64,000 nt of DNA from Bacillota bacterium (GTDB lineage Bacteria > Bacillota > Bacilli > Bacillales > Cytobacillaceae), in the NCBI GenBank assembly GCA_030705955.1, contig JAUZPL010000006.1, positions 1 to 64,000 on the forward strand, in the 5' to 3' direction. The translations under genes and the position numbers were made by a program. Shown here one piece after another: positions 30,116-34,574 of the stretch (positions are counted from its first letter, which is position 1; each line of letters opens with the position of its first letter). The notes beneath the pieces were generated by a model, which saw only the letters and a list, made by a program, of their open reading frames with translations, had not been told where the DNA came from and did not search any database.

Positions 30116-30196
30116 AAAATAAACTTGTATACTTAATTTAAGAGGTCAATTATGGTTTTTATATCATCTTGTGTACAAAAGGTAGGGGGAAAGAAA

Positions 30197-30457
30197 TTGG
30201 AATATAATAAGCAGACAAAAAACCGTTTGAAGAGAATAGAAGGACAAGTAAGGGGCGTTTTGAAAATGATGGAGGAACGTCAGGAGTGTGAAAAAATCGT
30301 TATTCAATTGTCTGCGGTAGCCTCAGCAATTCATCATACTGTGGGTGTTATCGTGAGCGAAAACCTAAAAAATTGTCTGATGGAACAAATCACCAATGGG
30401 GACAATACTGAAGATTTAGTCAAAGATGCCGTAAAACTATTAGTTAAAAGTAGATAA
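30197..30457 (+). CDS. cstR: CsoR/FrmR-family repressor, CstR-like (persulfide sensor)
   Basis: MEYNKQTKNRLKRIEGQVRGVLKMMEERQECEKIVIQLSA...SENLKNCL: two Cys, with Asn instead of the CsoR His before the second Cys; TTG start after AGGGGGA; track ORF starts at 30152. Confidence 0.85.
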   Translation: MEYNKQTKNRLKRIEGQVRGVLKMMEERQECEKIVIQLSAVASAIHHTVGVIVSENLKNCLMEQITNGDNTEDLVKDAVKLLVKSR

Positions 30458-30490: not shown

Positions 30491-30506
30491 ATACCCCTAT
30501 GGGTAT
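30491..30506. promoter_or_regulatory. candidate CstR operator upstream of rhodanese/persulfide operon
   Basis: ATACCC-CTAT-GGGTAT perfect half-site palindrome. Confidence 0.75.
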
Positions 30507-30527: not shown

Positions 30528-30884
30528 ATGAGTACCAATATTATTATTATCATTATTTTACTTGGATTGTTAATTTGGAGATTACGTCCTGTAAAAGGTA
30601 TTCGAAATATAACCACAGCTGAGTTAAAAAATGAACTTGGCGATAACAATAAGCAATTTATTGATGTTCGAACACCTGGAGAATTTAAAGGTCGTTCAAT
30701 TAAAGAATTTAAAAATATTCCTCTTGATCAATTAACAAATAAAGTATCTTCTTTGTCGAAGGAAAAAGAAGTAGTTGTCATTTGTCAAAGTGGAATGCGT
30801 AGCGCAAGAGCAGCAAAGATTCTTAAAAAACTAGGTTTTCAAAAAATCACAAACGTCAAGGGCGGTATGAGTGCTTGGCAATAG
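30528..30884 (+). CDS. membrane-anchored rhodanese
   Basis: N-terminal TM; FIDVRTPGEFKG; VVICQSGMRSARAAKIL. Confidence 0.93.
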   Translation: MSTNIIIIIILLGLLIWRLRPVKGIRNITTAELKNELGDNNKQFIDVRTPGEFKGRSIKEFKNIPLDQLTNKVSSLSKEKEVVVICQSGMRSARAAKILKKLGFQKITNVKGGMSAWQ

Positions 30885-30896
30885 GAGGAGATAAAG

Positions 30897-31193
30897 ATGA
30901 AACAGATTACAGCTAATGAGGTAGAACAAAAATTACAAAATGGAGAGCAATTAAATATTATTGATGTTCGGGAAACACATGAAGTAGCAATGGGAAAAAT
31001 TCCAACAGCTGTAAATATTCCATTAGGGTTAGTAGAATTTAAGATGCCAGATTTAGATAAAAAGAAGGAATATATTATTGTTTGCCGGTCTGGTGCAAGA
31101 AGCTCACAAGCAACCAGATTCCTAGAAAGCTATGGATTTAGTGTAACAAATATGGATGGTGGAATGATGGCTTGGGAAGGCGAAGTGGAGTAA
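30897..31193 (+). CDS. rhodanese-like sulfurtransferase
   Basis: NIIDVRETHEV; IIVCRSGARSSQA. Confidence 0.93.
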   Translation: MKQITANEVEQKLQNGEQLNIIDVRETHEVAMGKIPTAVNIPLGLVEFKMPDLDKKKEYIIVCRSGARSSQATRFLESYGFSVTNMDGGMMAWEGEVE

Positions 31194-31249: not shown

Positions 31250-32383
31250 ATGTCATTAAACGAAATACTTGCAAACGAAGTTGCCAACAAAGTTATTAAC
31301 AAAGAACCATTGTTCATTCTCGATGTACGAAATGAAACAGATTATAATGACTGGAAAGTAGAGGGGGAGACCGTTACCTCTATTAACGTCCCTTACTTTG
31401 ATTTACTAGATGGAGTAGATGAACTTTTACCGAAATTACCTAAGGATCAACCAATTTTGGTTGTTTGTGCAAAAGAAGGCTCATCCAAATTTGTGGCAGA
31501 AAGTTTAGTGGAGGCAGGATTAACCAATGTTTCGTATCTTTCAGGTGGAATGAAAGCTTGGAGCGAATACCTTTATCCCACTACTATTTACCATGATGAA
31601 AACGTAAAGGTTTACCAGTTTATTCGTGTAGGAAAAGGTTGCCTTTCTTATATGATTATTTCAGAAAATGAGGCGCTTGTTATTGATCCTTCCCGCTTCC
31701 TTGATGTGTACGAAAATGTAGCTAATAACGATGGAGTTAAAATCTCTCACATTGTAGATTCCCATTTACATGCTGATCATATCTCAGGTGGAAGAGACCT
31801 AGCAAATCGTGTGGGGGCTAAGTACTACATGATGAAGAGCGAAGGGGCAATCTACGATTTTCATGCTCTTGAAGAATACACTCATATTGAATTTGAAAAA
31901 GTAAACCTTGAGGTTCTTGCAGTAAAAACACCAGGTCATACACCAGGTAGTGTCTCTTTCTTGGTTAATGATAAACTTCTTTTTTCAGGGGATACGATCT
32001 TTGTTGGTGGACTTGGTCGTCCAGACTTAGGTGGAAAAGCTGCTGAATGGGCCGGTGATTTATACGAAACTGTTTTCAATAAAGTTGCTGTCATTGCTGA
32101 TGAAGTGATTGTATTGCCTGGCCACTATGCTAGTCTTGACGAAATGAATAGTGAAGGGTTCGTAGGTGACATACTTGGAAATATCCGCAATCGAAATGAA
32201 ATGATGAAGACGAAGGATAAAACAGAATTTATAGAAAAGGTTGCATCGAATGCGGGTAGTGAGACACCTCCTAACTATGAAGAGATTGTTGCTATCAATC
32301 GAGGGATCATTCCTGCATCAGATGAAAAGAAGCAAGAACTTGAAATTGGACCAAATCGTTGCGCCCTTCACCATAAACACTAA
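31250..32383 (+). CDS. rhodanese-persulfide dioxygenase (MBL-fold) fusion
   Basis: N-terminal rhodanese VVCAKEGSS; C-terminal MBL HIVDSHLHADHISGG, TPGHTPGSVSF, FSGDTIFVGGLGRPDL, LPGHY. Confidence 0.93.
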   Translation: MSLNEILANEVANKVINKEPLFILDVRNETDYNDWKVEGETVTSINVPYFDLLDGVDELLPKLPKDQPILVVCAKEGSSKFVAESLVEAGLTNVSYLSGGMKAWSEYLYPTTIYHDENVKVYQFIRVGKGCLSYMIISENEALVIDPSRFLDVYENVANNDGVKISHIVDSHLHADHISGGRDLANRVGAKYYMMKSEGAIYDFHALEEYTHIEFEKVNLEVLAVKTPGHTPGSVSFLVNDKLLFSGDTIFVGGLGRPDLGGKAAEWAGDLYETVFNKVAVIADEVIVLPGHYASLDEMNSEGFVGDILGNIRNRNEMMKTKDKTEFIEKVASNAGSETPPNYEEIVAINRGIIPASDEKKQELEIGPNRCALHHKH

Positions 32384-32410: not shown

Positions 32411-32638
32411 ATGAATGCAGATAAAATTCTAGATGTAAAAGGGTTGGCATGTCCAATGCCAATAGTGAAAACAAAAAAGTTCATTGATACAATGGAATCT
32501 GGGCAGGTTTTAGAAATACATGCAACAGATAAAGGGGCAATAAATGACTTACCTGCTTGGGCTAATTCAACAGGACATGAATTAGTCAAAATGGATGAAG
32601 AGGCAGATGTATTAAAATTTTGGGTAAAAAAGGTATAA
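32411..32638 (+). CDS. tusA: TusA family sulfurtransferase
   Basis: LDVKGLACPMPIVKTKKFI CPxP motif. Confidence 0.93.
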   Translation: MNADKILDVKGLACPMPIVKTKKFIDTMESGQVLEIHATDKGAINDLPAWANSTGHELVKMDEEADVLKFWVKKV

Positions 32639-32682: not shown

Positions 32683-33471
32683 ATGGCATGGACCTTTGTA
32701 CTGGTTCTGTTTTTACTTGGATTTATTGGTTCGTTTATTTCTGGGATGGTTGGAATTGGTGGTGCCATTGTTAACTTCCCATTATTGCTATATGTACCGC
32801 CTCTTTTAGGGTTTGCTGCTTTTACATCTCATCAAGTCTCAGGGATTAGTGCGATGCAGGTCTTTTTTGCCACCATTGGTGGGGTTTTGATCTATAGAAA
32901 AAGTGGATATTTAAATAAGACGGTTATTTTAACAATGGGAATCAGTGTCCTTTTAGGGAGTTTTATTGGTGGATATGGATCCCATCTATTGCCAGAACAT
33001 GGGATCAATCTTGTTTATGGTATTCTAGCTATTATTGCTGTTGTTTTAATGTTTATTCCAAGGAAAAGTATGGAGGATGTTAGAACTGATGATCTAAAAA
33101 TAAATAAGCCGCTTGCAGCTAGTCTTTCCTTCATAGTTGGGATTAGTGCAGGTATTGTTGGTGCAGGTGGGGCGTTTTTATTGGTTCCAATCATGCTTAC
33201 ACTCTTAAAAATACCCACACGGATTACCATAGCTTCTTCCCTTGCCATTACCCTTATTTCTTCTATTGGTGTATCTGTTGGGAAGGTTTTTACAGGCCAG
33301 GTTGACTTACAACCTTCTGTTGTTGTGGTTATTGCCAGCTTGATTGCTTCTCCATTAGGCGCAAAGCTAGGAAAAAGGTTAAATACAAAAATTTTACAAT
33401 GGATTCTTGCCTTGTTAATTGGGTTAACAGCCATAAAGGTTTGGTATAGTATTTTTCAGGCATGGTTTTAA
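32683..33471 (+). CDS. TauE/SafE family sulfite exporter-type permease
   Basis: [27 protein letters not shown]; duplicated [20 protein letters not shown]. Confidence 0.92.
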
Positions 33472-33485
33472 AAGGGGGATTTGAA

Positions 33486-33665
33486 ATGGAAGAAAACAAG
33501 AAAATTGATCATGATTGTTCCACTACAGGCTTTTGAGGAATCAAACGTTCAAATATGTCTGGAAACGAAGAAGGACCGGTAAAACTGCCGATTCGGATAT
33601 GACCGGGCACATTTGTGTGGCTCCTGGTAGGAGCCATTTACCTGATTTATAAATTTTTTAGTTAA
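33486..33665 (+). CDS. putative novel selenoprotein: small C-terminal-TM protein with two in-frame TGA codons
   Basis: RBS AGGGGGA, ATG 33486; MEENKKIDHDCSTTGF[TGA]GIKRSNMSGNEEGPVKLPIRI[TGA]PGTFVWLLVGAIYLIYKFFS-TAA; hairpin with GGT loop 23 nt after second TGA; sits between TauE gene and operon terminator. Confidence 0.6.
33618..33636 (+). promoter_or_regulatory. candidate bacterial SECIS hairpin (second TGA of 33486 ORF)
   Basis: TGGCTCCT-GGT-AGGAGCCA perfect 8-bp stem with GGU apical loop. Confidence 0.6.
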
Positions 33666-33705: not shown

Positions 33706-33736
33706 AGAGAGCAAAACAATTTGCTCTCTTTTTTTG
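33706..33736 (+). terminator. intrinsic terminator of the persulfide operon
   Basis: AGAGAGCAAA-ACAA-TTTGCTCTCTTTTTTT. Confidence 0.85.
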
Positions 33737-34237: not shown

Positions 34238-34468
34238 CTATTTTACATACCTCATTAACGTTTCAGGATCATAGCCCAAAACCCAATGGCCATTTACCTT
34301 TGTCTGTGGTACCCCCATCTGTCCAGTTTCCTGAACAAGTCTTTGGGCGGCTATAGGATCTAACTGCACATTTACTTCTTTGAAGGTTAATCCTTGAGAC
34401 TCAAGGAATTGTTTCATCATTGTGCAGTATGGTCAAGTATTGGTCGAATAAACCGTAATTTCATTCAT
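34238..34468 (-). CDS. glutaredoxin family selenoprotein (UPYC active site)
   Basis: minus strand AGGAGG RBS, ATG 34468: MNEITVYSTNT[TGA 34435-34433]PYCTMMKQFLESQGLTFKEVNVQLDP...MGVPQTKVNGHWVLGYDPETLMRYVK; TGA replaces the nucleophilic Cys of CPYC. Confidence 0.85.
34392..34406 (-). promoter_or_regulatory. candidate SECIS hairpin in glutaredoxin gene
   Basis: minus strand CCTTG-AGTCT-CAAGG, stem begins 26 nt after TGA. Confidence 0.35.
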
Positions 34469-34574
34469 TCTGCGTGCCTCCTAGTATTGATTTCCCGATT
34501 CTGTTATTGCAAATAAAGAATTGGGACAACAATTTTGGTTTTCCCTTTCTTTTAATAAAAAAAACTGGCTAATA

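Follow-up and report, generated by a model that had tools for sequence, protein, structure and literature searches.

We have analyzed a short gene at positions 33486-33665 (plus strand) of a 64,000-nucleotide stretch of DNA from a Bacillota genome of the family Cytobacillaceae; this whole stretch is referred to here as the window. The gene has 59 codons, and its reading frame, MEENKKIDHDCSTTGF-U-GIKRSNMSGNEEGPVKLPIRI-U-PGTFVWLLVGAIYLIYKFFS-TAA, contains two in-frame TGA codons, designated UGA1 (33534-33536, residue 17) and UGA2 (33600-33602, residue 39). A ribosome-binding site, AGGGGGA, can be read from the sequence at 33474-33480. A single transmembrane (TM) helix, assigned to residues 40-58 (33603-33659) by AlphaFold and hydropathy, is encoded directly 3' of the Sec39 codon. 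UGA2 is followed by a SECIS-like hairpin (33618-33636) with an 8-bp stem and a GGU loop at 33626-33628, and an intrinsic terminator (33706-33736), made up of 33706-33729 plus a T run, marks the end of the operon. An earlier note, made from the sequence alone, had described the frame with its two TGAs, its ribosome-binding site, its TAA, the C-terminal hydrophobic helix and the terminator, and all of these are present as described.

The miniprotein gene starts 14 nt downstream of the end of the preceding gene and is the last gene of an operon whose genes are all on the plus strand. The others encode a CsoR-family repressor of the CstR/YrkD type (30152-30457, start codon uncertain), a rhodanese with an N-terminal hydrophobic segment (30528-30884), a second rhodanese (30897-31193), a rhodanese/metallo-beta-lactamase-fold protein of the persulfide dioxygenase (PDO) kind (YrkH-like, 31250-32383), a TusA-like sulfur carrier (YrkI-like, 32411-32638) and a TauE/SafE-type exporter (YrkJ-like, 32683-33471), the homologous gene of which on pBO1 is annotated TauE/SafE. 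An operator palindrome of the CstR/CsoR type, ATACCCCTATGGGTAT, is found at 30491-30506 (strand not assigned). With this repressor and the operator at 30491, the operon qualifies as a CstR/YrkD-type regulon; the assignment is made from sequence, without binding data, and does not distinguish the operator from a copper-type CsoR site.

Searched with the single miniprotein sequence, 399 order-level genomes yielded homologues in 37, and almost all of these homologues have both TGAs in frame. The profile search (E up to 1e-3) identified 54 of the 399, with an in-frame TGA in 52 of the 54, as well as homologues in 67 of 151 genomes of the host family; the wider class provided a few more. The occurrence of both TGAs in homologues from dozens of genomes places the double-TGA frame far beyond chance. 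In addition, 84,980 species genomes were scanned with a DNA pattern that allows any TGN at the second codon. This pattern matched 117 stretches, 101 of which are family members; the other 16 were judged to be chance matches, as was a viral match of the pattern (L191). The hosts of the 101 members include Neobacillus, Mesobacillus, Cytobacillus, Rossellomorea, Halalkalibacter, Salipaludibacillus, Virgibacillus and Aneurinibacillus, among others. The second codon is TGA in 100 of them and TGT in one. Counted over unique sequences, TGA occupies site 1 in 113 of 114 and site 2 in 118 of 119. Both exceptions are TGT (Cys), at site 1 in Halalkalibacter oceani (L134) and at site 2 in Peribacillus saganii (L103), and each retains TGA at its other site. 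Trp was not found at either TGA site among the family sequences compared, and the homologue searches returned no relative with Cys at both. The check proposed in the earlier note, asking what the TGA codons align with, is therefore answered by TGA, rarely Cys and never Trp. The family consensus is C-x(3-5)-U-G ... PPI-U-P-[GA]-xx-[VIL]-W-L-L-x-G, in proteins of about 45-65 residues. Cys11 is not invariant (it is absent in L118 and L157), while both Sec codons nearly are.

Closely similar miniprotein copies are common to several genera (L088, L099, L119, L127, L130, L205 and L209), several of them beside CcdA, redoxin and methyltransferase genes, and copies are also carried by the Cytobacillus plasmids NZ_CP015507, NZ_CP085393 and NZ_CP107028. 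The close similarity across genera and the plasmid locations suggest horizontal transfer. A tblastn search against plasmids gave no match at E up to 1, though pBO1 has a copy. Two plasmids have the gene in their sequence but not in the gene tables distributed with them, and no CDS is listed where a Cytobacillus plasmid carries its copy, the PLSDB gene table being incomplete. Two records with members, titled Chryseobacterium sp. ISL-80 (L097) and Pseudomonas sp. ISL-84 (L137), consist of Bacillus-type sequence, and their titles are probably wrong.

The coding character noted beyond both TGAs is borne out by purifying selection. In two clades (Mesobacillus-type and Neobacillus-type) the segment between the TGAs has a pN/pS of 0.21-0.33, and codons 13-18 downstream of UGA2 have 0.06-0.23. 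Values are higher and scatter more in two further groups of greater divergence, where the same downstream codons give 0.46-1.41. Since selection persists 3' of UGA1, ribosomes must pass this codon. The codon immediately 5' of UGA2 (33597-33599) is ATA in 98 of 101 sequences with Ile at this position, against a background of 20%. A second gene starting from the ATG that overlaps ATA-TGA at UGA2 was considered and rejected, as the alternative frames run for 16-100 codons and vary in length.

The SECIS-type hairpin proposed to follow the second TGA is confirmed in the relatives. In the window it reads TGGCTCCT-GGT-AGGAGCCA, with 23 nt separating its loop from UGA2, and the 19-mer folds at -12.3 kcal/mol, a stability reached by 0 of 200 shuffles. 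All 8 pairs are kept in 100 of 118 relatives, the loop is GGT, GGC or GGG in 117 of 118 sequences, and the stability of the hairpin exceeds that of synonymously recoded sequences (mean z -2.8). Synonymous sites are frozen: pS over the hairpin codons is 0.00-0.13 in all four groups, compared with 0.24-0.65 in nearly all other segments. Thus, downstream of UGA2 one Leu codon is CTC in 101 of 107 sequences (8% background in neighbouring genes) and another is CTG in 118 of 119 (13%), while GTA is used in 65 of 66 (28% background) and GGA in 116 of 118 (35%). Changes in the stem are of the compatible kind only (G-C to G-U, C-G to U-G). There is no two-sided compensation, so that the evidence at the RNA level is codon freezing and stability rather than covariation. 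As a positive control, the same scan recovered hairpins 3' of the selD Sec codon in seven genomes. Bacterial SECIS elements have been modelled with a loop of 3-9 nt, a stem of 4-16 bp, a G in the first two loop nucleotides and a distance of 16-37 nt from the UGA (PMC13188914); the UGA2 hairpin (8 bp, GGY loop, 23 nt) fits this model. Rfam returned nothing relevant.

The situation at UGA1 is different. The weaker hairpin CGTTC...GAAACG, which had been pointed out after the first TGA, is rejected as its SECIS (z = +0.99 in the window), and 114 relatives show no excess structure after UGA1 relative to synonymous recodings (mean z -0.01, or -0.21 with SECIS constraints). Good hairpins at a distance like that of UGA2 occur in a few clades only (L091/L137/L159, L167/L172 and L155). 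A conserved SECIS for UGA1 is absent in most species, and the decoding of this codon is unexplained. Conceivably one SECIS serves both codons, the UGA2 hairpin also directing Sec insertion at UGA1. A hint in this direction comes from P. saganii, where site 2 is Cys but the site-1 TGA and the hairpin are both retained. However, UGA1 lies about 65-89 nt upstream of the hairpin loop, beyond the usual 16-37 nt, and we offer this reading as a conjecture that may well be wrong.

The search for selA, selB, selC and selD suggested in the earlier note found the complete set in the host genome (selA, selB, selD and tRNA-Sec), and host selD is itself Sec-coding. The selD genes of the host and its relatives (L193, L087, L095, L142, L143, L147 and L182) are likewise Sec-coding and have a conserved GTT-loop hairpin 33 nt after the UGA. 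The host has two tRNA-Sec genes with a UCA anticodon (L003 and L004, on contigs C147 and C42 of G000); the second is either a duplicate or an effect of assembly or contamination. In the order, selB is present in 49 of 52 family-positive genomes versus 131 of 347 others (180 of 399 overall; Fisher p ~1e-15, uncorrected for phylogeny). The exceptions without selB are G204 (fragmented, 480 contigs), G344 and G270; the latter two have an intact miniprotein copy with no selB match, and another copy in G270 is broken by TAG. The miniprotein is missing from the majority of the order's selB-positive genomes, and the family is therefore not required for Sec synthesis. Two other genes of the window had been claimed to carry TGA at redox Cys positions. 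One of these stands: a glutaredoxin-like gene (34238-34480, minus strand) has an in-frame TGA at 34435, at the active-site Cys of its NTUPYC motif, and probably encodes a Sec glutaredoxin. The second could not be confirmed.

The persulfide-operon context of the window recurs across genera. A sulfane-sulfur gene, a label that covers relatives of rhodanese, PDO, TusA, TauE, DsrE, CoA-disulfide-reductase, CstR and DUF302, lies on the same strand within four ORFs at 63 of the 101 loci and is adjacent in 44. Thiol-redox genes (TlpA/ResA, TrxB-like, CcdA, Grx, OsmC) are near 47 loci and selD or selA-selB close by in 8, and 19 loci have none of the labelled neighbours. The labels derive from best BLAST hits and single-linkage clusters, and individual labels are approximate. 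The CstR-like operator TATACCC-N-GGGTA occurs 44 times in 786 kb of loci, where 0.1 are expected, and within 500 nt upstream of UGA2 in 7 loci. An in-frame TGA suspected of splitting a TrxB-like neighbour in Mesobacillus was not there on read-through.

AlphaFold predicts one confident helix (residues 40-58, pLDDT about 91-92) and a flexible N-terminus. The linker between the two Secs has a mean net charge of +3. By the positive-inside rule the positively charged side of a membrane protein faces the cytosol, and the Sec side is therefore expected to be cytosolic. A Cys is usually present 4-6 residues upstream of the first Sec (Sec17 here). The positively charged, selenol-bearing N-terminal segment would then face the cytosol, with Sec17 in a flexible tail and Sec39 at the start of the helix, on the membrane surface. 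A rise in sulfane sulfur would cause the CstR/YrkD-type repressor to release its operator, and the operon, including the miniprotein, would be made. Persulfidated rhodanese, TusA or low-molecular thiols could then pass their outer sulfur (or Se0) to the selenols. The second selenol or the Cys would resolve the adduct by forming a diselenide or selenylsulfide, and the protein would be recycled by a reductase of the thioredoxin type. No known domain or fold that would fix the chemistry was found. Such a role as a persulfide/selenium relay or reductase is inferred, the chemistry has not been shown, and we put it forward as a tentative proposal with somewhat less than even chances.

The reading of the frame as a double-Sec membrane miniprotein, the central claim of the earlier note, is supported by the tests that can be made on sequences (Sec machinery, TGA/Cys alignment, conservation, the UGA2 SECIS and context), and we are close to certain that the gene encodes a double-Sec selenoprotein, although proof of Sec by 75Se labelling or mass spectrometry is lacking. 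That the frame is instead a decayed gene or a chance opening can practically be discarded. Broken copies exist, with TAA in the linker (L136), TAG (L027 and L204), a disrupted frame (L189 and L202) or TCA replacing TGA (L206), but they are exceptions to a TGA that is near-universal across many genera, and decay or chance is refuted by the codon counts of the TGN pattern, the order-wide profile matches and the purifying selection beyond both TGAs. Ordinary UGA suppression, by near-cognate Trp or otherwise, would yield a C-terminally extended membrane form without Sec. UGA followed by C is a leaky stop context, and C always stands directly 3' of UGA2; UGA1, moreover, has no conserved SECIS. Nevertheless, suppression accounts poorly for a SECIS-type hairpin with frozen synonymous codons, for the association of the family with selB and for a natural replacement that is Cys and never Trp, and we regard it as very improbable. 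Hardly better placed is a selenium-status sensor, in which the two UGAs would make production of the short peptide, or translational coupling to the following gene, dependent on Sec supply. Two UGAs within a very short ORF and a next gene close behind in many loci are what a sensor would lead one to expect, but the miniprotein of the window is last in its operon and followed by a terminator, downstream genes vary between clades, and the C-terminal helix is under selection at the protein level.

A different alternative accepts the selenoprotein and gives it a selenium rather than a sulfur role, as a membrane-side perselenide or selenide carrier that either detoxifies selenite or supplies SelD with Se; rhodanese and TusA would then be handling selenium. 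Genes for selD occur in the four-gene same-strand neighbourhood at 8 loci (at least 5 of them with selD directly adjacent, and 4 with selA-selB near), the TusA of the operon weakly matches YedF models of selenium metabolism, TehB/MduS-like methyltransferases are found in the vicinity, and Mesobacillus selenatarsenatis is among the hosts. Against these 8 loci with sel genes, however, stand the 63 with sulfane-sulfur genes, many with CstR-type operators, as well as the selB-positive genomes of the order that do without the family. We consider a selenium role unlikely but not to be dismissed. The best explanation overall remains a new double-Sec, single-TM selenoprotein family, to which we assign a probability of roughly 0.87; work on sulfane sulfur (or selenium) is our best guess at its role, and Sec insertion and function are both inferred.

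The family looks like a real and undescribed one. Searches of Pfam, NCBIfam (all 48 aligned members), PHROGs and PDB gave no significant match, the literature search (which did not extend to subscription journals and preprints) found no description, and no entry with the C-x(3-5)-U-G ... PPI-U-P-[GA] motif appears in the 119-family selenoprotein table of a 2026 review (PMC13188914). Multi-Sec bacterial selenoproteins are known, such as the rhodanese/DsbD-like TsoB (UxxxxU), MbdU and the Grx-like UXX-star (PMC13188914, Table 1), and share with the miniprotein in-frame UGA, a bSECIS-type hairpin, a Sec-decoding host and a redox context, but none of the entries is a single-pass protein of 45-65 residues with its motif. 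Nearly all known selenoprotein families have Cys homologues (PMC13188914), whereas no double-Cys homologue turned up here, and the conserved SECIS is at UGA2 only. Discovery methods rely on Cys homologues (PMC13188914), and a Sec-only family of less than 65 residues therefore escapes them; this one is tiny and unannotated yet common in Bacillales (about a hundred genomes). Its two UGAs and one conserved SECIS make the decoding question directly testable. Glutaredoxin-type selenoproteins (UPYC) use the same host machinery, and the probable Sec glutaredoxin of the window is encoded only ~770 nt away on the opposite strand; unlike these, the miniprotein is membrane-anchored and has neither a thioredoxin fold nor a UxxC motif. 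The operon itself resembles the yrkD-yrkEFHIJ cluster of Bacillus licheniformis (PMC9918477) and the cst operon of Staphylococcus aureus (PMC5480029), which likewise combine a CsoR/CstR-type repressor, a rhodanese, a PDO-like protein, TusA and TauE; sulfane sulfur is the signal sensed by the YrkD/CstR-type repressors of such clusters (PMC9918477, PMC5480029). No selenoprotein is named in the B. licheniformis paper, whose text has 0 instances of 'seleno'. In Sec-decoding relatives the double-Sec gene comes as an addition to this yrkD-J/cst-like cluster, and it ties selenocysteine to bacterial persulfide homeostasis.
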